A stretch of 64,000 bases of DNA from Globodera rostochiensis (lineage: Eukaryota; Nematoda; Chromadorea; Rhabditida; Heteroderidae): contig JAEVLN010000010.1 of the NCBI GenBank assembly GCA_018350325.1, positions 2,604,001 through 2,668,000 of the forward strand, written 5' to 3'. Made by a program: the position numbers and the translations under genes. Below the pieces are notes generated by a model. The model did no database searches, had not been told where the DNA came from, and was given only the letters and a program-made list of their open reading frames with translations. Positions 14,617-49,132 of this stretch are shown in pieces (within the stretch, counting starts at the first letter, position 1; each line of letters opens with the position of its first letter).

Positions 14617-17600
14617 ATGTTAACAATGAAATTGCTTTGCATTTGTGGCCTTCTTGCAACGTTGCAAAATGTGGCGGTGGCCATGAACAATCCATATCAG
14701 GGTTAAATTTAAACACAAAAAAGAGATTAAAAATAAATTTTATAAAATTCAACTAGGCGGAACAGCACCACCGGTCGATAACGAAAGCGGAAGTGAGGAA
14801 GAAGATGAGCAGGTGCCACCTCAACATGCAGGCGGATTCGGCACCGGCATGCATCAACAATCGAATATGATGATGCATGGCGGCGTTCCGGTGCATCCGT
14901 CGCAGCAATGGCCGCAACAATCTTCGGCTTTGACCAGTTTCAACAGCAACAACCCTGCTCAGCAGGTGGAGAATCAATTGTTACACACAGGCGTGGGCAC
15001 GGATATCCGCGGAGATATCAGGGATACGGACGGGTAACGGATATGGTTTTTTTGGAAGGTCACAGATACGGACGGATGACGGATATCAAAAACCCACTTA
15101 CCTATCTGGATATCCGCTGTATATCCGCGGATATCCGGATATGGGATTTTGGAAGGTCACGGATACGGACGGATAACGGATATGAGATTTTTTTGAGGAC
15201 GGACGGCCACTGGATATGAAAATGCGTATCCGTGCCCACGCCTGGTTACACACAAAGATTGAATAATGAATGCCCGTTGAGCAAAAGAAGAATGAATACT
15301 CTAAAAATATAATATTTTACTTAAGAGCTTAAGAGGTGCCGTTTAAATTGTCATTATCTTTTCTATTTAGCAGTACGGATCACAGCAGCATCCGGGCATG
15401 AACATGCCTTCGCCTACGGGCAGTTTCAACTCAAATCCCAATTCTATGGGCAGTTTCAACTCAAATCCCCATTCTATGGGCAGTTTCAACTCAAATCCTC
15501 AATTTGCCGCCAACCCTCAACAGGTGAATTAAGTGATTAATACATAAATATTGTTTACCGGAGCTCAGTGGCGATATTTCTTCTGCTATATAGTCAGAAA
15601 AAACTATCTTTTCAATTTAGTATAAAGATTGAATACCGGAGTTTTTGAAAATTGAACCTAAAAATTGACAAACTTGTTTACCCCATTCTTAGGGGGTGCA
15701 TATTTTTTCCGTTTTCCCCGTAAAAAAAGGGCATTTTAACGGAAAATTAAAAATGCCAAAGCTCAAGTTTGACGCACAAAATACACAAAGTTTCGCGAAG
15801 CTCGAGCTTAAAACCAGTTTTAAAAAACTTTCTGACGGAATTAAAAACGGAAATCCGGACCCTCTAAAATTTCGGATTTTCCATGCAAAAATCCACCGGT
15901 GGAAACAGAATGAGGGGCGGAGGTGGACCGGCGGTGCCGAATTGACCCTCAAATTTCATAATTTCATAATTTTGCGATTTTTTTGATTTTTTAAAAGCTG
16001 ATTGAATAAACCCCAAAAAAACTTATAGCCAGTGGCAAATGCCATATAAATAAGGTATTATCGACCACCTGCTGTTACAATAGCACGGGTTCAAGCCACC
16101 TGCGGTTGGTGTCACTCATTAGTCGGTATAAATCATAATTAGTAAAGAACGCACACAATTAGCACTATGTAACGAAACAATTTATGTGCCCGTTTAGCCG
16201 AATATGGGAATGATGCAACAACAGCCTAACAACCATTTGCCTCAACTGTTCCAATTGATGCAACAACAGCCTAACAACCCAATGGTCACTCAACTGTTCC
16301 AATTGGTGCAACAACAGCCCAACAACCCAATGATCAGTCAACTGTTCCAATTGATGCAACAACAGCCCAACAACCCAATGATCAGTCAAATGATCCAAAT
16401 GGCGCTACAACCGCCAGCAGTACCAGCAATGCCGACGATGATGCAACAAAACTCTTTGAACCGGAACATGAGCAGCAACCCGTCGATGTTGCACAGCTCG
16501 CCAAGCATGTCGATGCCCGGTTTCGTGAGTCAAAACACTGTCATTTTAATGATATATTTTAATTTAAAACTCTGTTACCAAAGGGCGGAGGTATCTGTTG
16601 ATGACCATAATGAGTAATTTGATTAATGACAATTTGTATATTTTTGCTTAAGCAACCGAATCCGGGCTATGGACCCAATCAGGGGCAAACTCCACCGAAA
16701 ACAACCGGTAGAAGAAACTCCAGAACTAGCAATGCTTCGGGTTTGTCAAATACAAATGTAATGCAGCCGCCAGCTTTTGTGGTGAACATTTAAAGGATGT
16801 TAAATAAATAATATTTTTTTTTGTAAATAATTTGAGTTAGGAAAAGAAAGAAAAGCCTGACAACATTTTTGTTTGTTATCTTTTTTAACAAATTCCATTA
16901 AAAAATTTAAAAATTTTTTCTCGGTGGCGCCTATTGGCACCGCCGCAAACGGATCCAAAACCTATGAAAAAGCCTGCCATTTTTGTAAATTTTCGGATCC
17001 TTTGCCAAAATGTCTGGACGGCATCTGGTTACATCCCTGGTTCAGACCAATTTTTTTTAGCAAAATCGGACAATAAATCGAATTTTTTTTTTCTGACGGT
17101 GCCTTTCGGCACCATCTGACATCCCGTCCCCAAAAGATTAACAATTAGCTAAAAAGATTCACTTTAAAATGGGTAAAATTCTTTACCAATACATCAATTT
17201 AAATATTTAAATAAAAATTTGCACCGGCACCTACGGACGGGACCAATTCTAGTGTTCGACAATGGATTCGATACGTTATTTCGATAAAAATATCGGTTCA
17301 AAAAACTCGAATTAATAGCTTTTTTTGGTATGATATTTCGATGAATGGCGTTTTTAATAAATCATATTATGCCGAACAGTAATATAATCTAGAGTTGGCC
17401 GGGATCGGGATTTTTTTTTTGGTAAATCGGGATCGGGATTGACCGGGATCGGGATCAGCATGTGTTGAACCGGGACCGAGATCTGCATTTTAACTCGATT
17501 AATTCCGATCTTACCGGGATCGGGTTTACAACTTTTCAAAAACCGGGACCGGGATCGGGATTCCAAAAACCGGGATAATCCCGCCTGATCCTGACCGGGA

Positions 17601-20600
17601 TACCGATCACGGCCAACTCTAATATATTAAACTAAGTTTCAGTCCTACTACGTCCACGAAGAGCGCGTCACCTATCCGGTCTCAATGAATCAGAATGGTG
17701 CGGATGTAATGCCATTTATGCTCGAGGCCTGCGTGGACATGGATTTACAGCGCAAACGGCTGTCACTTATGGATTGTGTAGAGAATCCGAAGTCTAAGAC
17801 TAAGAAGATACTGGCTGATAAAGATCCAGCGGCCATTGATTATGGCAAATTGGTGAAGAAGTTGTTGGAAGTTGAAGACTCAGAGGATACCTGGACAAAT
17901 CATATTCATACACTTCAAAAGGCTTGGGTTGGTTTATTGAATTTTGAACCGTGTGTTGTTGAGTTTGTTTGAAATAATAAAATTATTTAAACAGTAAATA
18001 AAAATAAAAAGATGTACTATGTATTTTTGGTACCTCTCTCCAAATTAAATTAAATTTTATATCAATCACTCCATTCACAACTAGAGCAAGGGTCGAGATT
18101 TCGATCGAGAATCTCGAAAAAATCTCGATTGACCTTTGCGCTAATTGCAATCTCTAATGCACGAATATAGCTAAAACCACTATGAATGGTGATAATACTA
18201 AATTTTTATTCATATTCTCGAGCATTAGAGGTTGTTTGGAGTTTATGAAATTTTGTTCAATTTGAAGAGGTATTTAAATGTTTTCCCATTTTTTTCACAG
18301 ATTACTGATGTCGACCAAAATCAAAGTCAAAAGAAGGCGGCGTCGTTTCCGTTTAGTGGTGGTCCAAAAAATCCGTATTTAAAGCAGCTCATTATCAATT
18401 CTGCCATGAATCGCGATGTATTATTGTTTCTGTCATTACACAACGCAACATTTGGACGGGTAATTATTAGAGCGTTTTCGTTGCGAGTTTGTCGAATCAT
18501 CAATTTGTAAAAAAAAAACAACTGAGATTTTCTTAAAATTCAATCAATTCAGTCGAGAATTCGACACTCGGGTCGAACGAAAACGACAAAACACGAAATG
18601 AAATTTTGTCCATGTTCATGATCAACAAAGTCATAAAAGGAATTGATTTTTTTTAAATCATTTGACCTAAGCGTGAAAACGGGTTATTAATGAATAACAT
18701 GGTTTTCAAAAAGATTTTACATGTAAATTCAAGATTCATAGCATAAAAGCCGTTTCTTATTTTTAAATAATTACATTTTTAATTAAATATAGCCAAATAC
18801 GGATTTTGCTGATCTGAACGAGATTATGGTGACCACCACAAATAAAGAGCGTGAAAACATGAGAACTCTTTACTCCAACATTAACCCCGACAAGAATTTG
18901 TGCACAGCTTTAAGGTAAGTTGTGGGCATTTTGATACGGCATCTACATATTAGAATACAGTAAAAGTCGCGTCGATTTTTTTACGGAAATCCCGCGGGAA
19001 CGGAAAATAATTGTTTTTCTATGGACTCTTATGTACAATGTGCATTTAACATTCTTTACAAAACATTTTTATCAACAAAAAAAAAGCTAAAATTGTTTAG
19101 AATGGAAGAAAGCAAGCTGAAACCCCATAAATATGGCTTAATCATTGAGTCTCTGTGCCAAACCAATCGTGATGAATATTTTAAACTATCGAACAACGAC
19201 AAATTGCAAGATATCAATCAGGTGGAATCGAATGTTTTTTAATTATAAAATAAAAATAAGACGAAATATACATGACAACGTTTTTTTTTGTTCATTTTTC
19301 AGGATGCACAAATATTCTTAAAATTATTACAAGTGAAGGATAATAATTCACTTGAAACATTTTGGATGAGAAAAGATCGAAGTCCAACTAACGGTAAAGT
19401 TATCATACAAATGTTGACGAAGGACAATTATGAGCGGTTGCGTTATGTTTTTAAACAGTGCGGAGACGATGTTTTGAAAAAGGTGCACAAGGCACTCGAT
19501 ACCGTGAAAGACGTCGTACTTCGTGCAATGATGGTAATTTTAAAAATATACAAATGCATTAAAACTTGATTAAATTATTCCGAATAACAACATCAAATCA
19601 AATAAAAAAGGCTAGTTGATCGTCCGTTCCGTAATTCCGTGTTCCGCTTTATTTTTTTTTGTTGACACGGACGACAGCCCTGGTTGGCACATTTTTTGTT
19701 TGTTTTTCTTTTTAGTCACTGCTCCGTTACATTGTGATCGATGTGGTCTACGGGCGACCCTACCTCATGGCAGTGTTGCTGCGCGAAAAGTTGGATCGTA
19801 TTTATCTGAACTTAACAAATACAAAAGAATTGCAAGACGCTTTCAATGACGCCACGCGCATTCTCTTGCTCCGTGGACCAGTCGATCTGATTGACATTCG
19901 TGATGAATACGGTGATGAAAAAAAACTTTGCCTGAAAAAGGAGGACATCGCAAAGGTCAAGCAAAAAGGCATAAAGTACGAAGACGCTGTCAAAGACAGA
20001 TTTAACTCAGATGAACATTTGAAAAAGCATCTGTACTCTCTTCATGATACATTTGCCAATAAAAAAAAAGACAGTGAAGCGTATGCTATTAGCGGGTAAT
20101 GTTTTTTGAATTTGGACTTTACCGGTGTCAAATAGTCGTGCTGGGTCGTTTCGTAAAAACTGACACCATTGGCGTTTTGTAAATTCCTATATTTTGTGAA
20201 GTAATTTTTGACATCATAACTTTATACTCGTGATCGGCCAGAAGGTTCGGTCGGTACTATTCGGTAAAGTATCGAAAAAATACCGTTACAAAAATTTTCG
20301 GTACTCAACTTTCTTCGGTCTCGGTACCTTCGGTTCTCAAAAAGTTTTGGTCACTTCTTTTCGGTAAAATACCGAAAAAGTACCGGTACCGAAAAGTATC
20401 GGTACTTTTCGAAAAAGTTCGGTCGGTACTATTCGGTAAAGTACCGAAGCCTGAGTACCGAAAGGTGCCGAAAAAGCGTCGGTACTTCCCCGTACCGACC
20501 GAACACTACTTTATACACACCGCACTAAATCAGTAAATCCTTATTATTATTCGAACTAAATGAGTAACTTTTTTAAAACTTTGATTTACTGCTTTGTTTA

Positions 20601-21407
20601 GTTTTACAAATAGTTTCTATTCATATAGAGCTTTCCAATGGTATAAGGCCTAACTGAATTAGTTCGGTGTAAATAAAGTTATGATGTCTAAAATTACTGC
20701 ATAAAATATATGTGGCAAATTTACGCAAACGCCCATGGTGAATTATTTTCTTTGCGTTTATAATTTTTTTTTTTTGTTTTAAACAAGCCGCCCCTCGTAT
20801 GTATCAAATGCAATTAATATCCTAATTAATGCGCAGGTATATTGATCTGCTGGAGTGGTTGGAAAAAAAGGAAGAGGGAAATGAAAATGTTAACTGGATG
20901 ATAATCCAGAAGGATGCCATTGAGGCCTTCACAGAAACTGATCTCCTCAAATGCATGACGGCCGATGAAAAACCACATGAACATGTGATCGTCCAAGCCA
21001 CTGGACAAATTTATCCGCTTGAAAATTCCCAAATGGATGCCGCCAACATGATGATGCCACCACAGATGCCTCCTCATCTGACGAACATGGCATCTTTTGC
21101 TGGTTATGGCATGCAGCAAGGCCTACCAGGCAATCAGGGCTTTGGCGGCAACATGCGATTTGCTCAACAACCACAATTTAACCCAAATGTGTACGGTGCA
21201 GGACTACCAGGCAACCAGAGCTTTGGCGGCAACATGCAATTTGCTCAACAACCACAATTTGATCCAAATGTGTACGGTGCAATGGCGGCACAATTCAGCA
21301 ACATGGGCATCCAGCCAGGCCAAAACCAATACCAACAACAAAACAACCAGCAGTATCAGGGTGGCATGACGCATCAAGGCAGCAATATGCCGCCGCCGAA
21401 GAAATGA
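14617..21407 (+). CDS. Secreted annexin-like protein with Gln/Asn/Met-rich arms, 915 aa
   Basis: Twelve exons (14617-14701, 14757-14965, 15371-15523, 16198-16524, 16653-16757, 17643-17927, 18301-18459, 18793-18914, 19101-19221, 19303-19533, 19716-20095, 20837-21407) stay in frame throughout. Residues 1-22 are a signal peptide. About 40-290 is low complexity, with GSFNSNP repeats and four QLFQLMQQQPNNPM-type repeats. About 390-720 is a divergent annexin core: DLNEIMVTTTNKERENMRTLY is the R..E...I...Y helix pattern of a repeat, LCQTNRDE matches the usual L..(A/G)NRDE link, and RILLLRGPVDLIDIRDEYG matches repeat four. Calcium-binding GxGT loops are not preserved. The C terminus (about 790-915) is again Gly/Gln/Asn-rich, with a tandem GLPGNQ.FGGNM repeat. 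If exon 5 is read through instead, the gene stops at 16793 as a shorter Gln-rich protein. Annexin-like secreted proteins are known effectors of plant-parasitic nematodes. Confidence 0.7.
14989..15244. mobile_element. TATCCG-rich inverted-repeat element, copy 2
   Basis: It lies in intron 2 of the annexin-like gene. The ends AGGCGTGGGCACGGATA and TATCCGTGCCCACGCCT are inverted copies. The 9-bp direct repeat GTTACACAC flanks the element (14980-14988 and 15245-15253), which proves it is an insertion. Same family as 126-349. Confidence 0.85.
16905..17125. repeat. GGCGCC-type dispersed repeat
   Basis: The words GGTGGCGCCTATTGGCACCGCC and GGTGCCTTTCGGCACC form short hairpins. Similar GGCGGCGCC/GGCGCTGCC hairpins occur near 29490-29515, 38805-38840 and 42205-42230, so this is a dispersed family. 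It lies in intron 5 of the annexin-like gene. Confidence 0.45.
17391..17620. mobile_element. GGGATCGG-rich element with inverted ends
   Basis: It begins AGAGTTGGCCGGGATCGG and ends CCGATCACGGCCAACTCT, so the termini are inverted repeats. The interior is repeated CCGGGATCGGGAT. It lies in intron 5 of the annexin-like gene, ending 22 bases before the exon 6 acceptor. I could not find an exact target duplication. Confidence 0.6.
20137..20740. mobile_element. Inverted-repeat element with nested GGTACCG tract
   Basis: The left arm (CGTGCTGGGTCGTTTCGTAAAAACTG.., 20137-20225) is the reverse complement of the right arm seen complete at 5120-5210 and partly here at 20655-20740. The interior 20239-20510 is a separate self-complementary tract of GGTACCGAAAA words with its own inverted ends (GGTTCGGTCGGTAC / GTACCGACCGAAC), so one element appears to have inserted in another. 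The whole lies in the last intron of the annexin-like gene. Confidence 0.65.
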
Positions 21408-29751: not shown

Positions 29752-32700
29752 ATGTATTTTTTTCCCTGCAATTTTATTGTTACGCTAACAGTTTTTTGGT
29801 TGTATGGTTCTAACTGCGAAAATAATGGTATGTTTAAATTTGATAATATTTAAATATATATTTTTAATTTATATAAAATATTGTGCCCAAATCATCTGAA
29901 GCCGGTGGAATTGCGAGATGAATTTGCTTTTATTGTTCATTTGATCGAAAAAAAGTATGTTGGCCAGGAAAATGGATGGCGAAAATTTGCCAAATTTTTG
30001 ACGTTTTTGACACCCAAAAAACGTATGGAAACAATTGATGAATTTTGTGCTAAAATCAATCGCGAAAGTGATCAACAAAAGAGTCAATGGTTTTTTCGCA
30101 AGGTATTTTAAATGAAATTTAAAAAAAAAATCACAATTAAAATGCCCTTTATATTTTTTTTTACATTGAAATTTTTCCTTAGTAGTTGGGTTCCAACTCG
30201 GAAAAATCTCTGTTTTTAGGGGAGCTTGGACTCGATTCTCGGGTTCTTAGTCTTGGAAACCGAGACTTTTTACACCCTTAAAAGTTCTATTTTCATTAAA
30301 AACATCAAAAATTTCTTGGTTTTATGGTGCTCGGGCTCGAGTCTCGGGGTCAAAGTGGCCTACTCCCATTTTCTGTTTTCTCCATGCTTGAGTGAAAGTA
30401 TTAATTAATTAATTAAATTTTAGATGAAGCCTCCGTTAAACAAAAATGAACAATGCTTGCACAAAATTTTTTGGCCCTCCAATGCAGAGTTGGCCAAGCT
30501 AAAAGGCGCCAATTTTTTGACAAATTCGTCATACAATGAGGTGGCCAAAATGCTTGAAAGCATGCTTAAACCAAGGGCGCAATTGGTGGCTGAAATTCTC
30601 CACAACACTCTGACAAAAAAAGGTATACGGTACTTGAAAATATACAATACTCTGTCAGGCAGTGAAACTGTAACGTTTAAAACAATTTGACCACGGCCTG
30701 ACCCAATTAGTCTCAAAACATAATCTAGATCAGCTCATTTAGACTGGTATGTAACTTACTATTAAACGACTTTTAATAAAACCGGTACCCTTATATAAAA
30801 ATGATTATTTTTATAAATATTAAAACCTACATTAAAAAAATTTATTAGATCGTTCAAAAATTGAAGAAAAATTCGATGTTTTGGCGGAGGTTTTGTTTGG
30901 ACGTCCAAAACATGAACTGATTAGTGTAATCATTGACTATAATGAACGGTTCAATGATGGCCAACCAAAAGCGGCACAATCACAAATACTTTTATTAAGC
31001 GACATTCAACACAAATTTGATCAGCAAGTGAAGCAAAAATACGATTTCAAAATTTTGGTCAAAAGAGTAAATGCAATTCACAACGAGAGTTCAATTGATG
31101 AAAAAAGGGTATATTTAAATGTTCAACATCAATTAATCAAATAATAAAATATGTAGTAATAAAATTCCGAGTCTCAACAAGTAAAAACCGTTCATCATGT
31201 GTCAAAAACTGAGAAGTTCTTTATAAAATTCTCTTTATCAGAGTTGCCTTGAGTTTAGAAAAGGTCGAGTTACGAGTCTAAAAAACCTCGGGTTTCGATT
31301 TTTGGGTAATTTACTTAAACATTTGCTGTCCTTTTCAAGGGAAAATTGTGAAATGTTGAATCAATTTTCTTAACAAAAACGGACCAAAATAATTTTCGGC
31401 GGCTGAGCGGGATACGGGATCGGCATTACCATAGAACCCAAGCTGCATCCCGGTGTCCCTGAGGATCCCGGGGTCCCTGTGGATCCCTAGGTCCCTGGAT
31501 CCCGTGATCCCTGAGGATCCCGAGATCACTGGATCCCGGTGTCCCTGGGGATCCCGAATTACTAGTTCTAAAGGATTTAAAATTTTCCATTCAAGCTTTG
31601 AGTCTGCAAATTCGGCTTTCGAATTTCGAGCGGCACTGTTATATTCTTCTTTATTTTGTTAGTATTATTTAAAAAATGCATAATATTTAGTTGATTGCTA
31701 ACATATTAGAAAATTGTAAAAATTGGAAATGCGTTGGGAGTGATTGCACGCATGTTGAGGAGCAACAACAACACTTAATTTGGAGTGAAAACAAAATTGT
31801 GCTTCAAATGTCGAAAATGAATCAAATGCTAAAAAAATTTTTGGTAAAAAATCTTAAAACGCAATTTTAACTTACACGAAAATAGAATATTTTAAAAGAA
31901 AAAATTATTAAAAAGTTATTTTTTTAAAATCAATTTAGTTCAAATTCAAATATTAAGAACTTTTTGTACACAAACTTTTTCTTCACTTTGTACGCTAAAT
32001 TTAACGCATTCAGATATTTTTTGACTATAATTCATCGAACGCAACAAATTTTGCCGAAAACTTCAAGCTTAATTGTGCCGATTACATTAAATATATGCAA
32101 AATTCATCTAAACCACAGGCAGCAAAATCTAATGCATGGTTTAGAAGGTTCGGGTTTTTTTAATTATTTACTTTTTATATTATAGACGAAAAAAATACAA
32201 ATTATTGCATTTTTATAGGTTCAAAAAGGACAAACAAACTAATACTCAGAATACCGGTACCGTATCACTAGCACAGCAAGAAATCGTGTCAAGAAACAAT
32301 TTCTTTCAAATTTGGAAATTGTTGGGAATTTCGGGACTTTTGGAAATTGGCTCGGAATATGTGCATTTGGCCAAAACATTAAATGAAGCAAATTTGAGAG
32401 GAAATTTTGAAAGTAAATCTAATAAAAATCTTGTTTTTTTTTATTTAAAAAGTAAAATAAATATTTGTTAATTAATACTTTTATTTATTTGCAGCTGTAA
32501 GCAGAATAATTGGCATTCATGTTGGCAAAGATATGTTGAAAATTTTAGCAAAATTAAACGATAATAGTGCCAGATTGAAATTCAACGGAATGTTTCAAGC
32601 GGCATACATGGAGATTTTAAAGGACACTCAAGACAACTGTTATCGACTCGTTGAATCGGAAAACGGCACAAATTTTGGGCAAAATGAAAAGGTAAAGCAA

Positions 32701-35700
32701 AAAATAATGAAAAAATAATTTTTTATCTAAAATTTTAAAGATTTAATAATATAATTTCTTCATATTTCTTGAATAGTTAGTATTATTTCAGTACATATTT
32801 ACCGTATTTCCAATATTAATAACCTCCCCCCCCCCCCCCCCCTCCAATTGTAACCGCCCCTCGAGGGGGGTTTGCAAATAGTACCCCCCCCCCCCCCCCC
32901 CCTCTATTTGACCCCCTCCAAATGTAACCGCCCCTCGAGGGGGGTTGCAAATAAATAGGGTGTGTAGACATTTGCGGCTCAGACATTTGCGGCCCAGACA
33001 TTTTCGGCCCAGACATTTGCGGCTTAAGACAAAATAGACATTTGCGCCCCGACATTTGCGGCCCAGACATTTGCGGCTTAAGACAAAATAGACATTTGCG
33101 CCCCGACATTTGCGGCGCAGACATTTGCGGCCCAGACATTTGCGACCCGACTTTTGCGGCCCAGACACTTGCGGCCTAAGACAAAATAGACATTTGCGGC
33201 CCAGACATTTACGACCCAGACATTTACGACCCAGACATTTGCGGCTTTATATTACAAAAAAAAAACATTTTATCTAATTGTTGTGGCTGGGCCTCATCAG
33301 TACGGAAGACACAACAATTAGTGATGTATTTGCATAGTGTTTCGGCCCTTATCCGTAGACACGGCAAGCCACAGCAAAAAGCAAATTGACAAAAGCAATT
33401 GACATTAAGCAATTAATATTATAGAATATTTTTATTCTATTCTATTGCTTTCTAAAGACACATTTATGCCACTCTAGTTAGTTCGATAAATAGTTAGATG
33501 CTGCAAATAAAAAAAAGTTTTGTTCTGACCGCAATTTGCTATTTGCTGTGTTAGGAAAAATGTTTTTTTTGGTAATTGTTGTGTCTTCCGTACTGATGAG
33601 GCCCGGCCACAACAATTAGATAAAATGTTTTTTTTTTGGAATATAAAGCCGCAAATGTCTGGGTCGTAAATGTCTGGGTCGTAAATGTCGGGCCGCAAAT
33701 GTCTATTTTGTCTTAGGCCGCAAGTGTCTGGGCCGCAAAAGTCGGGTCGCAAATGTCTGGGCCGCAAATGTCTGGGCCGCAAATGTCTGCGCCGCAAATG
33801 TCTGAGCCGCAAATGTCGGCCAACCGCAAATAGTACCCCCCCCCCCTCTATTTGACCCCCTCTAATTGTAACCTCCCCTCGAGGGAGGTTTGAACAATAG
33901 TAACCCCGGGGTTACTAATAGAGGAAATACGGTTATGAGTTTTCTTATTTATAAATAAATTTGCTTTACTAAATTCATTACGTTTTGTTCTCCAAAAATG
34001 CATCACATCTAAATGAGCGAAAAGTGCAACTATAAAAATTAATTGTAATAAATAGACATTATTTATAATTATTTAAAAAACAAAATAGGATGTCCAACCC
34101 GTTCAACATTCTTCTGAACAAGGCCGGAAAATAAAATTTGAAAATCCAAATCATAAAAAAGAATTCTTACAATTTGCAAAACAAAAAAATTTTCAACAAA
34201 AAAGTCGCACCATTTTAATTAATAACAACACTCCATCGAATAATGTGCAAAAAATAGTCAAAAATAGCATACAAAAATTGCCTCCACATTCATCGGAAAC
34301 TGAGGACGAATTTTATAGTCCAGAAAATTTTGAAATTTATGAAACAGAAAAACTTTCAAATATAAATGATAAAAGATCTTCTAAATCTGTTGAAAGTAGT
34401 AGAAATTTGGAAGAAATTCAATCAGAAATTGAAGAAGAATTTCATAGTCCGGAATTTGTTGCTGAACCAGAAAATGCTAATGCTGTACAAGAAAATGGCA
34501 TTAATTATTTAAAATTGTTTAAAGAATTCACAAGTTCTTTTTTAAATGATGGTATTGGTGAAATGAATGGAAATTGGAAAAAATGTAATTAATTATATTT
34601 TAACAAAATTTATTCGAGATTTTTATATTACTAATATAACAATTTAGTTGTTTCAAAATTAACAAAAATATTATATGTAATTGGTAAATTTTTGAATTAA
34701 ATGATTTATTTTTTAAGTGATTGCTTCATTTAAAGCAACCGATCGATTTTTATTGTTTCTCACCGAAACAGTCAAAGAAAAAATATTGAAGCGAAAATGG
34801 AAAATTTTGGGCCCCAAAAAGAGGTGTAAGCCCCTGGAAAATAAACAGTTTGCCAATTTTTTGAGCACAAAGGCGGACAAATTTGGTCGACGTATTTTGA
34901 ACATTAAGTCCAAATGGATTCACACAATGCCAAACATTAATATGCATTTTTTCAAATCAATTGTTCTGTTTGGCATTAATTTGGCTGATCATCGTCTGTC
35001 AAAAATGGGAGAAAATAATAGAAATGACAGAAAAGCAAAGAAAAAAATGTTAAAAATGAAAACAACGCTTAGCAATGCATTTCACTGTTTCCCCTCAATG
35101 CAAATGGATTTGGGCGATAATCGCGATGTTCAAGAAGTTTTACACTAGTAAGTTAAAAAATAAATATGGTTAAAAAAAAAAAAAAAAAATAAATAATTTA
35201 AAATATTCGTCCACTTAACTGATCCATTACAAAATTTGTAGTTCTCTATAACTAGGTATCTTAATGACAAAATAAAACTTTGGTACCATCAGAGAACTTT
35301 AATTAAATAGAAAATATACAATTCAACATTTTTTTCGAAAATAATGTTGTGAAACTGCGAAAATTTGGGATTTTTGGAGTTTATTGATCTTTTCGAGTAT
35401 AACCCTAGAGATCGCTCCTTTTACAGTACAATTTGTCAAAATGCTCCCACGAAAATTGATAATTCCTAAACCGAAATGCATTAAAGCGATTTAGCACTTT
35501 TTTAACAAATTTAATTTATTTAAAAAAATTATAAGAAAATAACATAGATTGACCAATTGGAAGTTTTCAACACAAATTACTATTTTAACACATATTTGTT
35601 TGGCATTTTTTAGGTTTATATTTTTATAAATATTTCAATAGCACATAAATCTGAGCCCTCCCTATTTATAGTTTTGGAATATTAAAATTTTTATTTATTT

Positions 35701-36474: not shown

Positions 36475-38039
36475 ATGATTTATATCCCTATAATAGTCGT
36501 CAACTTTCTTTGCTGGCACTTATTTGAAGTTAATGGAGGTGACGACAATGGACATGGCGGCATTTTTGCTAATTTATGGAAAAATGAAAATTTAATTGGC
36601 AAAATTTTAGAAATGAAAAATGATGTCGAATCTAGCTGTAATCAAAACATTACAAAAATTGCATTAAATCCCATTAAAATTGAAGCCAAAAACGACCAAC
36701 TATTCCTACAAAATCACGAACAAAAAATGCCAGCGAAGCATTTTGTCGATCAAAAATCACCAAAATTTGCGGGCGAATCAAATTTTAATGTCAAAGATGA
36801 AGGAATGTCTATGGATGATGTTCAAAAAATTTCCAAACTTGTAAAAGTGGAAGTTAAAGCCGAACAAGTTTCTGATGAATATTTACAAAATAATGGAAAA
36901 CAGAATGCAAAACAAATCAACGATGATCAGCATCAATGGTCGTCGCGTTCCGATCATGAGGACCAAGATTCAGATTCCGATCAGTGGCTTGGAACCCAAG
37001 AACAAAGTTCACAAGATAATTTAATCGATTCAAACGATGAAAATTTTGATAATGACAGGAAAGAAAAAGTGTTGACTATTCATGAATTTGACAAAATGAA
37101 AAAAGAATACCTAAAAAACAACAACAAAAATTGTCCAATTAAAATTGAACAAGAAATTGCGAAAAAATTGGGCACTTATCGAACAAACATTTATAAATGG
37201 AAGAAGGAATTGGGTTATTCGGGAAAAATACTTTCGGAGCAACAAAAATGTGAAAAAATTAATCGGTTTTATGAGTTAAAAAAAGAGTACATGTCCAAAA
37301 TTGAAATCAAAGGTAAAAGTCGGAAAAGCGCAAAAAATGAAAAATATCCCCGAGATATTGAAAATGGTATTGCAAAACAATTGGGAACAAGTCGTTCAGA
37401 GATTTATAAATGGAAGAAAAAATATGGCATAAAATGTAAGAATTTTAAAAAATTTTAGATTTAGTGTAACTTTGAAAAATGTAAATTTGCGTAAATATTT
37501 TTTGCAAAATAAAAAAACCTAACCTAAATAAAATTTGATCCAAATTTAAAGGACTTTAATTTGGGTTATTTACAAATTTTAAAAAATCTTCAATTAAAAA
37601 GATGTTAATAATTAAAATTGCAATATTTAGGCCCAGTACCAGCAAAGCGTAGTGAACAAAAAATGCAAGAATTATTTGAGCAATTGAATACATTTAAAAG
37701 CAATTTTGAGGCCAAATTCAATAGAAAAATGACCATTGAAATTGAAAGAAAAATTGCAAAAAAAATTGGCATTTCCGAAAAAACATTATATGAAATAAAA
37801 AAAGATCGCGGTCTAATCCGTAAATTTATTTTAAAACTAAAATAATTAAATTGTTTATTTAAATTTATTCCTTTCAAGGTAAGCATAACTACAATGCTGA
37901 AGGGAAACAACAATTAATAGAGCGCTATGACGAAATTCAACAAAAACATCCGGCACTCAGTGGTGCCAAAATTGCAAAAATGTTGAAAATCAATAGCAGA
38001 ACCATAAAGAGTTGGAAAAAATGTTTTAATGAATTTTAA
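36475..38039 (+). CDS. Secreted protein with four helix-turn-helix-like repeats, 436 aa
   Basis: Three exons (36475-37435, 37631-37819, 37879-38039) join in frame. Residues 1-21 are a signal peptide (MIYIPIIVVNFLCWHLFEVNG). Residues 22-200 are acidic and low complexity (SDHEDQDSDSDQW). Four repeats follow, each a charged helix, then IE..IAKKLGT.R..IYKWKKELG: about residues 204-247, 262-316, 330-382 and 386-435. This is the shape of a homeodomain-like/Psq-type HTH with a recognition helix ending in YKWKK; the last copy reads IAKMLKINSRTIKSWKK. Lys-rich stretches could act as nuclear signals. A DNA-binding-type module behind a secretion signal, between two secreted annexin-like genes, suggests an effector acting in a host nucleus, but that is inference. 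Confidence 0.75.
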
Positions 38040-39499: not shown

Positions 39500-42400
39500 A
39501 TGCAGAATAAACATATATTTTTATGTTATTCAATAACAATCATTTTGTTCACATTTTGCCTCGGAGCTGATGACGGTTGGTTTTGTTAAAGCTTTTATTT
39601 ATTTATTTAAAAATTTGTCATTTAAAAGAAACAATGTGTCCAAATCAATGGAAGACGAGTGAACTGAGAGGCGAATTTGTGTCCATTCTGCATTTGATCG
39701 AAAAGCAGGAAATTGGACAGGAAACCGGATGGCGAAAATTTGCAAAATTTTTAACATTTTTAACCCATGAAAAGCGTATGCAAACGGTGCACGATTTTTG
39801 TGTAAAAATTAATCAAGAAAAAGATACGCCGAAGAAGCGGTGGTTCCGCAAGGTTTCAAGAAATAAAAAAAAAATAAATAAATTTGTGCATAAAAAGGAG
39901 TTAGGGCGAATTGCTTTAACTTCTTTTAATCATTTAAGACGTTGGTTTAAATTGTCAAAAATTTTCGGTTAAGCAATCTGAAATAAATATCAAAAAAAGC
40001 CACGACTGAATACGACTGACATACCTAATTAAAAAAATATGTACTCCTACAGTGAATTTTCTAAATACCGGTTCCGGGATATCCATTTTCGAACAACTCT
40101 TACGCGTAAAATTGTTTATTTATTTTAAAAATATTGAAAAATTGTGTACATTTTTACATATTTTTAGGTCAAATCAAGCAATTACGAGGAGTGTTTAGAC
40201 AAAATTTTCTGGGCCGGCAACGCCGAGTTGATCAAGTTGAAAAGGCCCAACTTTTTCACCGGCCTCATTTACAACATGTACAGTGAAAATGCAAAAATGT
40301 TTGAGGGCATGTTGAAGCCCAGGGACCAGCTTTTGGCTGAAATATTTTACGCCACATTAAAGCCAGGTAGATTTGTTTTATTTTAAAATCGCAAAAAAGC
40401 TTTTTATATCAATTAAAAAAGGTTTAAAATAAATTATTTTTTTATTACCGAAGTTATTTAAAAAAAAAGTTTCAAAAAGTGCAAATGAATTTCTCCCAAA
40501 CGCTGCTAAAATTTGAATCCTTCTTAAAAAAATGCAAAATGTAAAATGTTAAAAGCAATTTATAATGTAAATTTCATAAATGTGGCTTTTTTGTCCATAT
40601 TTTAGCTTCTTTTTTTTGAGATTTTAGCTAGCCAGGGGCCGCATTTTATCATTTTGTCACTTTTTGAAAAAATGACATACCAGCTAATACCTTTTTGAAC
40701 GATAACCATGATGTTATGTACTAGTGCTGCACGAGAGTCTCGATATCGAGTATGGACTCGAGAAAAGTCTTGAGTTTTTTGGGTCTCGGGCTCGGGCTCG
40801 AGTCTCGAATATCGAGAAATTTTGGGTCTCGTGCAGCACTATTATGTACTGTGTAGGTCGTCATGGACAAGTGGACACCGGTGTGTTGATGGAAATTGTG
40901 ATGGGCCGACCTAAGCGAGAGTTGAGAGCCGCCATTTCCAAATACAATAGACTGTTCATTAATCGGCACAACAATTCGAATGAGCCCCAACTTTTGGTTG
41001 AGCTTAAAAATATTAGCAGAAAATTGACCAATGACTCAGCAACAAAAAATATCTACGATCTGTTGGAGGCCCGGATTGATGCAATTGCGCGAGAAGAGTC
41101 TCCGGATGCTGTAAAAGGAGAAAATATTTTAATTAATTATTTATAAAAACTATAAGTTTGTTGTAGATTAAGTTAAAAATTTTTATTTATTATCTTATAT
41201 TTTTTTTATGCAAATTTAATTTTATTTATTAAATGGTTCTGAACGAGCGATTAGAAAAAAAAATGAAAAATTGGTTTATGAAATATTTTTAAATTTATAT
41301 TTAGCTGATCAAAAACATATTTAAAACTTGTGAAGATTGGAAAAATTGGGAAAGACTTTGCTGTAATGAACATCATTGTGCAAATTGTGGACTAAATTCT
41401 TATACGGAAAAAGATAAACCGTACGTATGGGCTGATGACCGGCTTGTAAATCGAATAAACAAAATGAACAATTTGCTAAAAGAACTTCTGGTAAACATTT
41501 ATTATTTGATAATAATTAGAGTTGGCATTTATGCACTAAAAAGAGCGTCAAAATATGTGCATTTTAACAATTTTTTTTGCAAAAATATCCTTTAAAATTC
41601 TTAAATATGAAAAATTTTGTTTTTGCACTTTTTGTTAAAGAATTTTTTTAGTCAAAAAGTGCCAAATATTCATTTTCAAATGGTCAAAAAAGAAAAGGAC
41701 CGAACTTACAACACCCTTTTTTGAGCTAATTTCATAGAACTTATTGGGATACAAATGCATATAAATCACAGAAAATTTATTTAATATTTTTCATTTAATT
41801 CTGTAAGAATACAATGAAATCAAAAAATTATTCTTTGTTAAATTTAAAATAATTAATAATTATTTGAAATTTAAAAATCAGCAGAATTTTCACACCAAAT
41901 TCAGGTATTGTCTAAGCAGGATTCGATGCTTGACAAATATTTTTCCCAAAAATTCCAAGAAAATTGTAAATCATTCATTAATTATATGCACAATCCAAAC
42001 AAATCCAAAAAACATCATCATCAACAACAATTATCCCCAAATGCTGGGTCAATTAAGAAAACTTCGTGGTTTGAAAGGTCTGCCTGGTTAGGGGGGTTCG
42101 GTAGCTGAAATGCCGAATTTTTGTCTACAAAAATAGTAAGCTAAATTTTTACCTAAACGAAAATTTTGCAAATTGAGCATTTTTGGTGGTCCAATTTTTT
42201 CTTAATCCCGGCGGCGCCATTGCCCCCGGACTTTTTTACAAACTTTTGATTAGAACATAAAAAAACAAGTTAAAGGAAGAAAAACCCTAAAAATAAAAAT
42301 TTTAAAAAAAACAAAAAATTAATAAAAAATCGGGCATTTAAGCTCTCATTAACGCACAATTCAAACCAATTAAAACACTGTTTAAGGCTAAAAAATGTCA

Positions 42401-45400
42401 AAACTGAAGCCAATACCGAAACAGCCTTCGCAGAAATTGTGCCAAGAAGAAAATTCGGCACAATTAAGGAAATGCTAAAAATTGCTGGGCTTTTAGAACC
42501 TGACTCAGAATATAAGTATTTGGCACAAAAATTGAAGGAGGCAAATTTAACTGGAAAGTATCAAGGTCTAAAAAGAAAATTTTGAAATAGTTTTTATCAA
42601 TTAATAATCATAAAATAATTAAAAAATAAACTTATTAAAATGTGTTGAATTTAAAAATTAAATTTAATAGCATTAAAAATCGTGGATTTTTTTTCTATTT
42701 TTTAATAATATTTAATTCATATTAACTTAGTAATAAAAAATTTTTTTTTGTTTTTTTCGGCAGAAATGAATTGAATAAAAATATCAATTGAATAATTTTT
42801 TCAGCTGTTCAACGCTTTGTTGACATTCATGTTGGTGTTGATATGCTGAAAATTTTGGAACATTATGTGGGAGGTGTGTCCGGAATTTTAAAGGATTCGA
42901 CCATCAAAAATGGTCGCGCAACAACATTTAATGCAATGTTTACGGCAGCCTATTTGGGCATTATGAACAACACGAGCAGCAAATGCTATAGGGACGTTGA
43001 ACATGGAGCGCTGCAACGAATTGGCGTACTGTTCTTTTGTTACACAACTCTCTAGGGCTTTCACTTTTAGGCACAAATAATTGCAAAATAGGCGTCTAAA
43101 TAGGCACAAAAAAAAGTTCTAAAATAGGTATGAAATAGGCACAAAAATCCTCAAATAGGCACAAAATAGGCAAATTTTTACAGAAGGTTTTAACAAAAAA
43201 GAAAAAATAAGCGATCATTTCTGCTTATTGCAGTTACAAATCATAAATTTTTCAAGATTTTCCTGAGTAAAGCTCATCCGATTGTCGGCTAAAATGTTTT
43301 TGTATGCCGAAAACGAACGCTCCACTTCGCACGATTACAATTAACATATTTTCCAACCAAAAAATCTGATCAAATCCCGAGTTATTTCACAAAACAGTGT
43401 TGAACTTTTCTTGCATTGGTCCAGTCCTTCATCCAACTAGCTTTTGCCTTTATTTTTGGCATTTTTTGCAAAATATCTCAAAATCCTAAAAAAAAAGTCG
43501 CCAAAAATGTCGAAATAGGCACAAATAGGCATTAGGCACAAAAAACCCAAAATAGGAATTATTAAAATTTATTTATAATTTAATATGCCATAAATATGCA
43601 TTTTTTGTTTAAAAAATATTTACTAGCTACAGTATTTCCTGTAATAATAGAAACCCGGGTCGATTATTGTTTCCCCCCCCCCCCCCTCCAAAGGTGTCTA
43701 TTATTAGAGGGGGGTCTTCTAATTTAGGGGGGTTTATTATTATAGGAAATACGGCAATTATAATATTTGAAAAATTATTTTAAGGATGGTATAAAACAAA
43801 AGAAAGTGCGTTTCGCTAAACTCGAAGGAGGCGAGCCAAGACCGGTTTATTTTCTTGAAATTAATATTTAAACTGAAAGGTTTTTACATAAACTTCAGAC
43901 ATTACAAAGCATTGGATCAAAGCGTCCTGCACCAATGGAAGAGGCGCATTTTTTTAAATTAAATTTATATTTTTATTTAACATAAATTTAATAAAAAAGC
44001 TTAATTAAATAAATAGGTTATTAAATGATTTTTTGGTTGATTTATTAAAATATTTAAAAAAATAAAAATTTATTTATTATTCAGGAAGAAATTGATATTG
44101 AAAATTCTTTGGTAAAAAGCCTGGAATTTCTTATGAGCAAAGTTCAGAGTCAAATAAATTATTTGATCAAAGCACAGCTCGAAGGTTTGCGGCCAGCCGA
44201 TCGTGCCAAAGAAATGGCCGTAAATTGTGAGGTGGATGACGAATTGTTTGGCCAATTTTTAAATGGAATTGAAATTGGACCAAATTTACTACACCGAGGA
44301 GGGGCAAACTGTTTGCAGGGGATTTATGACAATTTGGCCGAACGTCGTTCAAAAATTGTAATTTTAAGGGAGGATTTTAATTATATGTGTGAATAATATT
44401 AAAAAAATTTAAAATAAAAAGATTTAATTTTAATTTCATTTTTTTGTTAATTTTTTAAAAAGATTTTCGGTGAAGATGGTCAGTTGGGAATTCTTCCGCC
44501 ATCAGCTGAACCCAAACTAAACCTGGGACCGAATGCCATTAAAAGAAACAGAACGCCAAAAAGCGGCAAATTGGAAATAAGAGAACCACAACACGAAAGC
44601 AATACGAGCAAAAATATTGTGAAAAGTCCAAAACTAATTCAAATGCCCCCAACAAAAGAAGGAAGAAATATAATGGACAATGCGCATAAAAGTGCCAATA
44701 TGCCTACAAAAGACAATGCGAAAACATCTGAGATTATTGAATTGGAACATCAACCAAATAGTCCAAAACCAATTCAAATGCCAAATAGCCCAACAAAAGA
44801 AGGAAGAAATAGCAATGACAATGCACATAAAAGTGACAATATGCCTACAAAAAATAATGCGACAAAATCTGAGATTATTGAATTGGAACATCAACCAAAT
44901 AGTCCAAAAGCAATTCAAATGCCAAATAGCCCCGCAAAAGAAGAAAGAAATAGCAATGACAATGCGCATAAAAGTGACAATATGCCTAAAAAAGACAATG
45001 CGACAACATCTGAGATTATTAAATTAGAACGTGAACCAAGTCTAAAGAGCATATCAAAAAGTCCTCAGAAAGAGGAGAATGGTAATAATGAAAGGTAATT
45101 TTTTTAAATCGAAAAAATATTGATTTAAAATATTGTGTATTTGGTTATTAGAAGCAACCATATCTTTTTAAATAAAATTTCTAAAAATAACTCGATTAGT
45201 CCTTTTTTAATTCTTATTTTTATGACTAATACCTCGTTTTGGCGTTAGATGGATGGTGGTGACCCGTCCAATTTTGCCGCTCAATTTTTATTTTTTAAAT
45301 AGATTTTATTTAATTTTAACAAATATTTACATAAAATTTCAGATCAAAAAAACTGATCAATGCATATTTATGTTTTTATTTAGTTTCAATGTAATTGTGG

Positions 45401-48400
45401 CGTTGGATGATTTGATCAATTTGTTCCGCAAGGCTCGGGACAACTTATTGCTTGCCGAAGTTGAATTGGAAGTGCCCCACGTGGCGTATAATGACAATAG
45501 TGCATGTTGGGTGGACGACCAACTTTTTAAACAATTTTTGAATGGCGAACCGATCGGACAATATTTGTTGCCGAATGGTGATGCCAACAAAATGGGGACA
45601 ATTTTGGACTATTTGCATGACCGTCGCGACTATTACGTAAGAATATAATAATTCGGCAATGTTGAAAATTAATCCTTTTTTTGTTAAAAATGCGTTACTA
45701 AATTAGCCAAAACTTCCGGTTCGGAAAATCGATAGTCGGGTTTGTTTGGCTTTTGAATGAGATTTACCGGGAATTTGGAAAAGCTATCCATTCGGGAGTC
45801 CCGTTCGCGGGTTTGTTGAATTTTTTTTTTGTATTTTGACCGCGACTTTCAAAATCCAGGCCAATCCCCATTCAGCAAGTCTCTATTAAATATATTTTAG
45901 AATTTTTTTTTTGAATTTATAGGCACAGTATCAGCCTTTGGACGAATCGAGGCTAATGATCAGGCTTAATTCACTGATTAATCGTGTTGATAAGGCCCAA
46001 AAATATTTGGCAAAAGCCGAGGGGCCATATTATAATCCAAAGGCTCGCACCAAAACGCGTACCAATGAATTTGACAATTTGTTTAAGCAATTTTTGGACG
46101 GCAAAAAAATTGGACGCAAATTTCTGCCGAAAGGAGGCTCAAATTGTATGGACTCATTTTTGGACAATTTGATTCAACGCCGAGAAAATTTGGTAAAATT
46201 CCTTTAAAAATTCATCCATAATTAGTGATTTTATGTGGGGTTGATTTTAAAGTGTATCGGATTTGAAATCAATTCAAATAGTTTTAAATGATAAAATCTG
46301 ATAAAAAGTTACTGATTCATTATGAAAATAAAGTTATTGAAATAAAAATTTATTAAAATCTATAAAAAAATCTTTAAAATAAAAACATTGAAGAAAAATT
46401 TTTATGTCTTACTGTTTTTACTATGTTTGTACCCCGATCCCGAATCTCCGGCATTTTTGCTCAGGGGGTTTCCCCCCCCCCCCCACCCCAAACTTTTCGA
46501 AATTTCGGAGTGTTTAATGAAAACCATTAAACCCCCGACATTTTTGGTCAGAGTTTTTCGCTCCCGTAGGCGCAGAGAGCAACCACCCCTGAAGGCTTAA
46601 TGTATTCAGAAAAATGGCGGCGACGGCCTTTTGGGTGAACAGCCAGTTGTCGAAGAACGGCACAACGGAGAAAAATATGGCAAAACGCGCAGTATGCCAA
46701 TAAACGGCAGTTTGGTGCCACATCATTCAAAAGACATTGATTACAACAAATCGCACAGCATGCCAACCACAGAGAAAGAATATAAACGGACAAGCTCAGA
46801 GCGATCGCGATCATACGGCCGGCCAAGGGACAATGAAATCACCAGCAGTGTGCCAGCACCGGCAGATAACGGTAGAAAATATTGGGAATTTTATACGTCT
46901 TCTGTTCACGATCAAAATTTTAAATGATCAGATCAACTTGAAAGATCAAATATTGATTGGATCAGTTAGAGATAACATTTTAATGATTAGAGGATCTGAT
47001 CATTTCTGAATAAGCCGGCACATTTTTAGAAAGCCAGAACAGTGAATCACCGCCGCCATCTTGGCTTGACACAGCACGGGAATGGTCTGGATGGATGGTA
47101 ATTTTTTTATTAAATTTTTTATATAAATAAAATAAAATTTTAGAAGGATAAATTGAATCCATTTAATACTGTGAATAAAGCAGAAACTGTGAAAAAATCG
47201 TTGACAAATGAAACGATAACACCGCAAAAAATAACAAGAGAAATTTCGCCGAAAAAGAATGAGAAAAACATCGTACTATTTATTTATATTTTTTTATCTT
47301 GATTTCATTAGAAATAACAAAATGAAGACATTTTTAAAATAAAGTTAATGTCACAAAAAAAAATTCCATTTAAATAGGAAAAAACTCGTTAAAACCCATT
47401 AAATAATTTTATTAAATATGTAAATTCAGAACGATGAACATTTTGCCAAACCAAAAGAATCTCCATCAAAAAACAACGTTGTCCATGTCAATGCTTCAAC
47501 AGGACGAAATACAAACAAAATTTCACCGCCACGTGATCAACCCAGTACACCTGGACTTGCGCCAAATCAACGTCCCAAAATTGTATGTTTTTTAAATGAA
47601 TTTTGTTTAAAAATCATTTTTAAAATTTAGACAGTAAGTCCTGATACACCGATCAAAAGCAGCCCAAAAAGTCCAAAATCGCCAACAGAAAGTCCATTGA
47701 GCGCAAATTCAGACAGTTCAAAAACAACAACTTCAAGCAGTACATCAGACGATGACATTCAACATCAAGCACAACAGCTTAACATTCGAGCACGCATTAC
47801 TGCCAAAACACCTTACGGCTCAAAAAAATTTGCCGCAACAAATGTTCCTGTTAAAGATGTGCCGGAAAGTAGTAGGAGTCGAGCAGTACCGACACACTCA
47901 AGTGATTCGGCATTGTTAAGAAAAAACTTACAGAAAAATGTGCCCAATTTCATGAAGAGCAAATCGCTTGGTCATAAAAATGTGCAAAATAATTTTGCAC
48001 GCAGTCCAAAATCGCCAACAGAAAGTCCATTGGGCTTAATGAGTTCGAGCAGTTCAGCAACAACAAGTCCAAAATCGCCAACAGAACGACCATTCGTGGG
48101 CGTAATAAATTCAAGCAGCAGTTCAGCAACAACAACAAGTTCAAGCGGTACATCTGACGATGACGTTGAACATCAAGCACAACAGTTTAACATTCGAGCA
48201 CGCATTACTGCCAAAACACCTTACGGCTCAAAAAAATCTGTCGGAACAAATGACGCTGTTAAAGGTGTGCCGAAAAGTAGTCGAAGTCGAGCAGCACCAA
48301 CACGCGCAAGCAAAGCGGAACTGTTGGGGAAAAATGCCGAAAGAAATGTGCCAAATTTCACAAAAAGCAAATCATTTGGCCATAAAAATACAGAAAATAA

Positions 48401-49132
48401 AATTGGAATACGACAAGCAGCACCGGCCAAAAGTGATGTGGCGGAAAGTAGTCGAAGTCGAGCAGCACCAACGCGTTCAAGCAATCCGGAATTGTTGAGA
48501 AAAAATGCCGAAAAAAGAAATGTGCCTAATTTGATGAAGAGCAAATCGTTTGGCCATAAAAATGCGCCAAATACAATTGGGACGACAAGACAAGCAGCAC
48601 CGGCCCAAAGTGATTCTGAGGACGATGTTCGTCTTTTGTCCACCGGCGTGAGGGATTTGGCCGGGAACTTTGATTTATTGGTTGAAGATAATTCTTCAAA
48701 AAATAAGAAATATAATAATTTAAACAAAACTAAATAATTGGGTAGAAATTTTTTTTTAGAAAATTGGCGCAAAATTAAGCCCAATTTTTTTTTTTGGGAA
48801 TGTACACTATTTTTTGCAGAAAATTTTAATATAAAAAAAATAATTTTAAACGGGAGAAAAAATACTTTTTATGATTTATTACTTTTTAGACAAAAATTTT
48901 TGAATTTCAAACCAAGACCCATTAAAAGTAACATTTTGTCACATGTTTACAGAACCAAGGGAATATTACGAACAATACAATGAACCACAACCATGATGTA
49001 CAACTTCGTCCAATTGTCTCCAGAAATGGGCGAAAGTCGAGCCGTGCCAGAGTTAGTCCACGAAAACTTCCTACACGACCTCCACCACCCCCACCAGCGC
49101 CAAGAAAGGTTTTTAAGGATAAAACAAAATAA
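39500..49132 (+). CDS. Large secreted annexin-like protein B with triplicated domain and repetitive tail
   Basis: Nineteen or twenty exons, all in frame: 39500-39575, 39629-39852, 40168-40366, 40857-41110, 41305-41490, 41905-42077, 42387-42565, 42805-43025, 43785-43844, 43899-43943, 44085-44357, 44463-45094, 45384-45636, 45923-46192, 46610-46871, 47030-47097, 47144-47272, 47430-47582, 47631-48737 (stop; 1587 aa), or the last exon spliced from 48647 to 48953-49132 (1617 aa). Residues 1-23 are a signal peptide. About 26-504 is annexin-like (GVLMEIVMGRPKRELRAAI shows the repeat pattern) with a Cys-rich insert (LCCNEHHCANCG). Exons 11, 13 and 14 each encode one copy of an unknown domain, core DDELFGQFLNGIEIG. 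Exon 12 has three 46-residue repeats. The final third is Ser/Pro/Lys-rich with duplicated KSKSFGHKN blocks. Intron 10 has a GC donor. Confidence 0.75.
40722..40841. mobile_element. TCTCG-rich miniature element abutting a splice acceptor
   Basis: The ends TAGTGCTGCACGAGA and TCTCGTGCAGCACTA are inverted. TTATGTAC flanks both sides (40714-40721, 40842-40849), an 8-bp duplication. The acceptor AG of gene B exon 4 is only 15 bases downstream. A related copy with its own 8-bp duplication lies at 49287-49450. Confidence 0.88.
43215..43335 (-). pseudogene. hAT transposase C-terminal fragment
   Basis: The minus strand reads SCEVERSFSAYKNILADNRM followed by SFTQENLEKFM and a stop. E.ERSFS..K.I....R..(L/M) is the hallmark of the hAT dimerisation domain at the C terminus of these transposases. 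Only about 40 codons remain, inside intron 8 of gene B, in a region (43045-43560) full of TAGGCACAAAA repeats. Confidence 0.75.
43630..43754. mobile_element. CCGTATTTYCC-family element, short copy 3
   Basis: Begins CAGTATTTCCTGTAATAATAGAAACCC and ends GGTTTATTATTATAGGAAATACGG, inverted ends like 27345-28381 and 32802-33932, with C and G runs inside. It lies 30 bases upstream of the exon 9 acceptor of gene B. Confidence 0.7.
44640..45050 (+). repeat. Three coding repeats of about 138 bases
   Basis: Exon 12 of gene B contains three near-identical tandem units encoding (N/P)KEGRN..DNAHKS.NMPTK followed by SEIIELEHQPNSPK..QMPN. The copies differ by few substitutions and keep the frame, so they are recent internal duplications in a hydrophilic linker. 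Confidence 0.85.

Follow-up and report, generated by a model that had tools for sequence, protein, structure and literature searches.

The window analysed is a whole stretch of 64,000 nucleotides, positions 2604001-2668000 of contig C2 in a genome of 92.6 Mb and 80 contigs, and the genes of interest lie between 14617 and 49132. Genes starting at 14617 (gene 1), 29752 (gene 2), 36475 (the helix-turn-helix, or HTH, gene) and 39500 (gene 3) are all on the + strand. An earlier note on this DNA, made from the sequence alone, had proposed that genes 1 to 3 are divergent secreted annexins in an expanding effector locus, with a secreted HTH gene between them. The element of the interval that appears on sequence comparison to be expanding is not the annexins; it is the family of the HTH gene, whose members evolve under constraint overall and change rapidly at a few positions of the recognition helix. 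The explanation that best fits the interval as a whole, and that is somewhat more likely right than wrong, is that chance would have brought together, in a cyst nematode resembling Globodera, three kinds of secreted-type gene with no relation to one another: a divergent secreted-type annexin (gene 1), an orphan secreted-type pair (genes 2 and 3), and one member of a large, diversifying family of tandem-HTH genes.

The genome is consistent with that of a cyst nematode, probably a potato cyst nematode and most likely G. rostochiensis. It holds pectate lyase PL3 (9 matches among 11 candidates) and a greatly enlarged set of SPRY domains (429 candidates, with a match in all 150 that were scored), and the named relatives of the HTH family come from Globodera. 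The single strand and the secreted-type starts pointed out in the earlier note were found again, all four genes having signal-peptide-like, hydrophobic N-termini with best 11-residue hydropathies of 2.65 (14617), 2.05 (29752), 2.42 (36475) and 2.55 (39500). This score alone is weak, because 16.3% of 398 background Met-started open reading frames (ORFs) of at least 26 aa reach 2.0 and 5.8% reach 2.5.

The HTH gene belongs to a large family

The HTH gene (36475-37458, + strand) is a single open frame predicting a secreted-type protein of 327 aa with two HTH modules. Its signal-peptide-like start and its match to Pfam HTH_28 (E 1.5e-6, 28.6 bits, cut-off 25) agree with the secreted HTH protein that the earlier note names only in its title. 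AlphaFold single-sequence modelling gave two three-helix units, with a mean pLDDT of 77 in the best model and 62-68 in the other four. The HTH part found no relevant match among PDB sequences.

Three HTH queries searched against the genome returned first-look candidates numbering 1471 (150 scored), 1705 (150 scored) and 1946 (107 scored); the first figure is for the HTH part of the window gene, whose 150 scored candidates gave 156 matches. A degenerate DNA pattern for the motif FDEIFG(K/E)GW matched the genome exactly 503 times and its reversed control not once, and a chance origin of the motif was rejected on this contrast. The figure of 503 counts motif matches and not genes, as some genes may hold two and some copies are broken; two of the matches listed are <100 bp apart. 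In the sampled subfamilies the motif follows a signal-peptide-like start. The window gene lacks it and is a divergent, outlying member of the family, sharing 40-46% identity with its best relatives across most of its HTH part. Among the matches listed, the family clusters on C45, C2, C3, C5, C18, C33, C78 and C10.

Family architecture was read from the top-scoring or first-listed copies (L024-L072), 49 loci besides the window's, 8 of which were dropped for want of a usable start. By eye, the remaining 41 of 49 show a Met and, after it, a hydrophobic stretch. Sampled members consist of a single open frame with a hydrophobic start, the motif, an acidic linker and HTH modules. At least one HTH was detected in 38 of the 42 start-bearing members (the window's included), and 36 of the 42 carry 2-7. 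Ten further family proteins were scanned and all match HTH families in Pfam (HTH_Tnp_1, HTH_23 and HTH_28). Two points on the family weigh against this description: Foldseek matches for the window HTH model are weak (best E 0.73), and a protein database search found as few as three relatives, two from G. pallida and one from G. rostochiensis, labelled 'hypothetical protein' or 'Transposase', a number compatible with an incomplete database or with a family that is smaller there.

The SPRYSEC proteins are likewise a large secreted family in Globodera, built on a SPRY domain instead of an HTH. PMC8359618 gives 60 and 99 SPRYSEC variants in two G. rostochiensis lines, and PMC4901422 puts the SPRY proteins of G. 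pallida at about 300, set beside the 503 HTH motif matches here. A dense run of SPRY matches (C45:2.4-3.3 Mb) adjoins an HTH gene cluster (C45:3.4-4.6 Mb), placing two expanded families on one contig.

The UniRef label 'Transposase', carried by one member, would be right if the family were transposon-derived and its copies had spread as mobile DNA. The HTH module is indeed common to the family and to HTH_Tnp_1, HTH_23 and HTH_28, there are many copies, and one member (L026) is matched by an IS630 transposase model, though far below cut-off. However, no catalytic transposase domain was found in any of the 10 proteins scanned, which at E<=0.001 hold only HTH-type and other small domains, and the tandem arrays behind a signal-peptide-like start set the family apart from those Pfam families. 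The Met and hydrophobic stretch seen in 41 of 49 loci also count against mobile DNA. A crude check for flank-to-flank 14-mer inverted repeats found none in three of four loci and two in the fourth. The listed positions are clustered, and the proteins evolve under constraint, with omega at about 0.5: the median by NG86 is 0.55, and none of 41 scorable close pairs exceeds 1 overall. A transposon origin of this kind is very unlikely.

Rapid change at recognition-helix positions

Constraint is unevenly distributed. Over 42 close pairs, omega is 0.41 in the HTH scaffold, 0.52 in the linker, 0.68 in the signal region and 0.85 in the recognition helix. In a set of 19 non-overlapping pairs, which 7 apparently complete ORFs joined out of the 17 matching the HTH model in a 40-kb cluster sample, whole-ORF omega is 0.50 and the recognition helix is the faster part in 15 pairs and the slower in 4 (sign test p 0.019). 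The variable helix-3 positions in these pairs are -7, -6, -5, -2 and -1 from an invariant tryptophan, which we take to be close to the classical base-contact positions. At these five, omega is 1.62 (bootstrap 1.27-2.30), or 1.31 (1.11-1.52) with HTH-wide dS, while at the buried positions of helix 3 it is 0.16.

For a replicate, 20 new loci were taken, all of them best matches to one subfamily. One (L077) had no clean frame and one of the other 19 was unpaired, leaving 18 members in 9 pairs. With the recognition positions fixed, omega is 1.47 (0.78-3.63) or 1.28 (0.92-1.71), with 0.40 elsewhere in the HTH and 0.09 at buried positions. The fast rate at the recognition positions replicates; that omega there is above 1 is suggested but not proven.

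Change of this kind could also come from relaxed constraint together with gene conversion and no selection, an explanation that is doubtful though far from negligible. It accommodates the variation at exposed helix-2 positions (-20 and -16), the omega of 0.85 for the whole recognition helix before positions were picked, and the replicate intervals, which include 1. It has more difficulty with the buried neighbours in the same helix, strongly constrained in both pair sets (0.16 and 0.09), and with point estimates above 1 at the recognition positions in both. Further points count against diversifying selection. The positions were chosen after their variability had been seen and were fixed only for the replicate, position -2 is slow in the replicate (2 of 18), rapid change extends to some positions not in helix 3 (-20, omega 2.06; -13, omega 1.81), and NG86 is a simple method that makes no correction for codon bias.

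Gene 1 is most likely a very divergent annexin

The annexin-like core of gene 1 spans 17640-20096 on the + strand. At the position of annexin repeat 1, upstream of the core proper, stands an exon (17640-17933) in which the repeat was undetected by profile, followed by an exon at the end of the repeat 1 region (18301-18459); neither matches a Pfam family. The exon at 18796-18915 corresponds to helices A-B of repeat 2 and, in a scan of 7 gene 1 exons with the whole Pfam library, is the only one to match Annexin, below cut-off (E 0.021, 15.3 bits, cut-off 25). An exon between repeats 2 and 3 (19105-19224) matches no Pfam family. Repeat 3 is assigned by position to 19306-19533, which matches the place of exons L016:6601-6843 and L017:3571-3780 in two paralogs, and repeat 4 is assigned by paralogy to 19719-20096, where DLIDI stands in place of the expected DLADI.

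The paralogs carry most of the support for repeats 2 to 4; the exons of repeat 1 matched nothing annexin-like. A genome search with the exon at 19719 found relatives on C80 (locus L016) and C10 (locus L017), with 50-51% identity over about 63 residues. The repeat-3 exon of the C80 paralog matches Pfam Annexin above cut-off (E 1.3e-5, 25.6 bits, cut-off 25), that of the C10 paralog at E 2.8e-5, and the C80 repeat-4 exon at E 0.027. Two annexin-matching paralog exons are below cut-off, at 24.5 and 15.0 bits, and 5 of the 8 paralog exons scanned have no annexin match in Pfam. Against the PDB, the C80 repeat-3 exon retrieved 48 distinct sequences at E<=10, every one of them named an annexin, the best (E 2.4e-6) aligning at the third repeat, with annexin XII and V giving the best matches there.

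An annexin model combining canonical and paralog repeats, with gene 1 left out, was used to rank 1594 ORFs together with 1594 decoys. First comes the gene 1 repeat-4 exon, at E 0.061, with an unrelated ORF next at 0.07; a decoy precedes the repeat-2 exon, which is fourth (E 1.9), and the best 22 listed do not include the repeat-3 exon. Several results speak against an annexin assignment. Taken alone, the repeat-4 exon has no annexin match in Pfam or the PDB and the repeat-3 exon has none in Pfam, and a model made from canonical annexins only places the gene 1 exons (E 3.2-5.5) below that of gene 3 (E 1.5), all of these values being insignificant. Searched against the protein database, the repeat-4 exon gave no candidate at E<=1 among 31 in a short and 193 in a long length range.

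The calcium loop G-x-G-T/S does not occur in the 6 gene 1 exons tested, and the type II form G-x-G-T is absent from the annexin loop position in gene 1 and in the 8 paralog exons. The latter contain one GIGS, located past the helix pair of repeat 4, away from the loop position. Some true annexins lack some of their calcium loops, so that missing loops do not by themselves exclude an annexin fold. Taken together, gene 1 is most likely a very divergent annexin from a lineage of at least three. Like annexins (PF00191), this family shows the A and B helices of repeats 2 to 4 in their proper order, together with the repeat-4 DLxDI, but gene 1 differs from them in its lack of calcium loops, its low-complexity flanks, its signal-peptide-like start and an undetected repeat 1. 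Helical repeats would have been retained while calcium loops were lost and low-complexity flanks gained, and the product would most likely serve outside the cell as a scaffold that binds membranes or proteins independently of calcium.

The flanks begin with a putative first exon (14617-14701, GT next at 14702) that encodes the signal-peptide-like N-terminus. M/Q/N/P-rich low-complexity exons with 30-bp and 48-bp tandem repeats follow (14759-16530), and their link to the annexin core is putative. An in-frame stop at 16792-16794 is followed by AATAAA, so the span of the gene is uncertain and 14617-16794 could be a separate gene. The last exon (20835-21407) encodes an M/Q/N/P-rich low-complexity tail with an 81-bp tandem repeat. 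The C80 paralog has a signal-peptide-like stretch (L016:5683-5757) about 160 bp upstream of its core. Downstream of the core, the C10 locus has a low-complexity stretch rich in Q/P/H/Y (L017:1180-1347, - strand), which weakly matches a gene 1 low-complexity exon (E 0.03), and low-complexity tails may therefore be an old feature of the lineage. Between gene 1 exons, at 14990-15242, a short element with inverted repeats (GGCGTGGGCACGGATA and its complement), which has the direct repeat GTTACACACA on either side, was read by eye; it looks like a miniature inverted-repeat transposable element in an intron.

Annexin relatives are already described in cyst nematodes. In PMC4388550, the Heterodera annexin effectors (4F01) of H. 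schachtii and H. glycines carry signal peptides, and 4F01 and Ha-annexin have four conserved annexin domains, whereas gene 1 is far more divergent. PMC9956659 reports an eggshell annexin of G. rostochiensis, GROS_g03104, and 17 annexin-like proteins in the genome by BLASTP; by its description there, GROS_g03104 differs from gene 1 in that it can be recognised as an annexin, responds to calcium, has a short insertion and, its authors say, is not secreted.

Genes 2 and 3 are a separate pair

Genes 2 and 3 (29752-32694 and 39500-43055, + strand) each open with a signal-peptide-like exon and are, on exon alignment, clear paralogs that form a pair apart from gene 1. Identities are 64% between the exons at 29881 and 39631, 62% between 30424 and 40171, and 35% between 30851 and 40859. 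Genome searches with gene 3 exons 39631 and 40859 retrieved, at E<=0.001, only themselves and gene 2. The further predicted exons of gene 2 are 29881-30105, 30424-30630, 30851-31114, 31691-31849, 32220-32414 and 32497-32694, in a model that is uncertain because no AG acceptor is seen just before 29881. Those of gene 3 are 39631-39858, 40171-40368, 40859-41119, 41305-41493, 42331-42570 and 42807-43055.

The three helix-pair peptides quoted in the earlier note are present in the sequence, and the canonical calcium loops that it found missing are absent here too (no G-x-G-T/S in 10 exons of genes 2 and 3). Its shared annexin-like core finds support for gene 1, by profile, paralogs and PDB, but genes 2 and 3 show no significant annexin support. 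It had suggested comparing all three cores with annexins by profile or structure, and the outcome is divided in the same way: gene 1 connects to annexins via its paralogs, while exons of genes 2 and 3 have nothing above cut-off in Pfam, two of them have no match in NCBIfam, and exon 40859 has no relevant match in the PDB. For the one gene 3 exon that was modelled (pLDDT 62), none of 16 Foldseek matches, all at E >6, is an annexin.

All three genes would nonetheless be annexins if genes 2 and 3 had diverged beyond detection by sequence, a reading that we regard as unlikely. By eye, gene 3 resembles an annexin repeat (MLKP...LKPG...LMEIVMGRPKRELRAAISKYNRLF), and the modelled exon has four helices with one tight helix pair. 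With the canonical-only model, exon 40712-41143 is fourth (E 1.5), above the gene 1 exons, but a decoy ranks higher, and the best 22 listed with the wider model contain no exon of genes 2 or 3. The best alignment between gene 1 and the pair (19719 with 40859, 22% identity, E 0.035) is one of many exon comparisons in an all-against-all set of 27, and it is out of annexin register because it pairs the repeat-4 A helix of gene 1 with the gene 3 helix pair.

An array of three tandem annexins was rejected because gene 1 and genes 2/3 have separate relatives. The expanding annexin effector locus of the earlier note is likewise unsupported: the relatives of gene 1 are on other contigs and are not tandem copies, genes 2 and 3 are a separate pair, and DOG boxes, the dorsal-gland promoter motif (ATGCCA within 500 bp upstream), are not enriched. 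Genes 1, 2, 3 and the HTH gene have 1, 0, 1 and 0, compared with 0.63 per 500 bp window-wide.

Other features of the window

Downstream of the gene 3 exons, its tail includes three similar exons (44085-44369, 45340-45645 and 45923-46195, + strand) of the type LFxQFLxG-x-x-IG with 37-53% mutual identity, and an exon (44463-45098, + strand) with a tandem repeat of a 141-bp unit (44648-45039). Unclassified open frames (34089-35148, + strand) lie in the tail of gene 2 as first drawn. Also inside gene 2 as first drawn, two arrays of a 15-bp unit, AGACATTTGCGGCCC, lie in opposite orientation about 400 bp apart (32966-33245 and 33648-33817) and are perhaps the array ends of a mobile element. Two open frames are on the - strand near the start of the window. 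That at 369-671 has LTFFIIGDMGG close to its end, presumably resembling the start of a tartrate-resistant acid phosphatase, and that at 2082-2339 has a 16-residue stretch that we take to resemble LDL-receptor class A. Rfam and tRNA scans across the window gave no matches.

Possible roles of the HTH family

The reading favoured here is that the HTH proteins are exported, bind nucleic acid and have diversified their recognition helices; that they are secreted, bind DNA and enter plants is inferred. Each module would bind nucleic acid via its third helix, arrays of 2-7 modules would read composite sites, and diversification would supply many specificities acting outside the cell that makes the proteins, whether inside the nuclei of the host or in some other setting, extracellular or male. 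In its strongest form, several hundred secreted proteins with 2-7 HTHs and DNA-contact residues under diversifying selection would make up a library of exported sequence-specific DNA-binders analogous in function to the TAL effectors of bacteria, a speculative and rather improbable proposal.

A role in plants is opposed by the promoters. The DOG box, taken from PMC4901422, occurs 21 times in 42 HTH promoters where 16 are expected, which is no enrichment, and 5 promoters have two or more; in that paper, however, the motif marks one gland type only. It is also opposed by a 474-gene family of G. pallida, characterised by similarity to HM147943.1, which may be the HTH family of this genome. Its size and divergence fit, though it was compared by size only and the main text of PMC4054857 has no word starting with 'helix'. 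In the same paper some members are exclusive to males and some are expressed in the digestive system, and of the few members tested none was found in gland cells. The open-licence papers searched, by title and the start of the abstract, include none describing a secreted HTH family in Globodera.

These observations would suit HTH proteins that are secreted but are not plant effectors, being instead male, digestive or egg-associated and diversifying through sexual or microbial conflict, an alternative given a substantial chance that falls short of even. The published expression in males and digestive system and the missing DOG-box signal favour it. On the other side, the two families are only possibly the same, the DOG box speaks for a single gland type, and a figure legend on effectors in PMC4054857 refers to dorsal-gland-like genes expressed in second-stage juveniles (J2).

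For gene 1, the analysis points to a lineage of secreted-type annexins that lack calcium loops and escape a Pfam Annexin search of the genome, whose 32 matches include neither gene 1 nor its two paralogs. For the HTH family, whatever its role, a large and constrained set of proteins is diversifying on one helix face. Should these proteins be exported and able to bind DNA, a major pest of potato would have, in one of its largest gene families, a set of DNA-binders for export, and the targets of that family, whether host genes or the parties to a conflict within the worm, would become directly testable.

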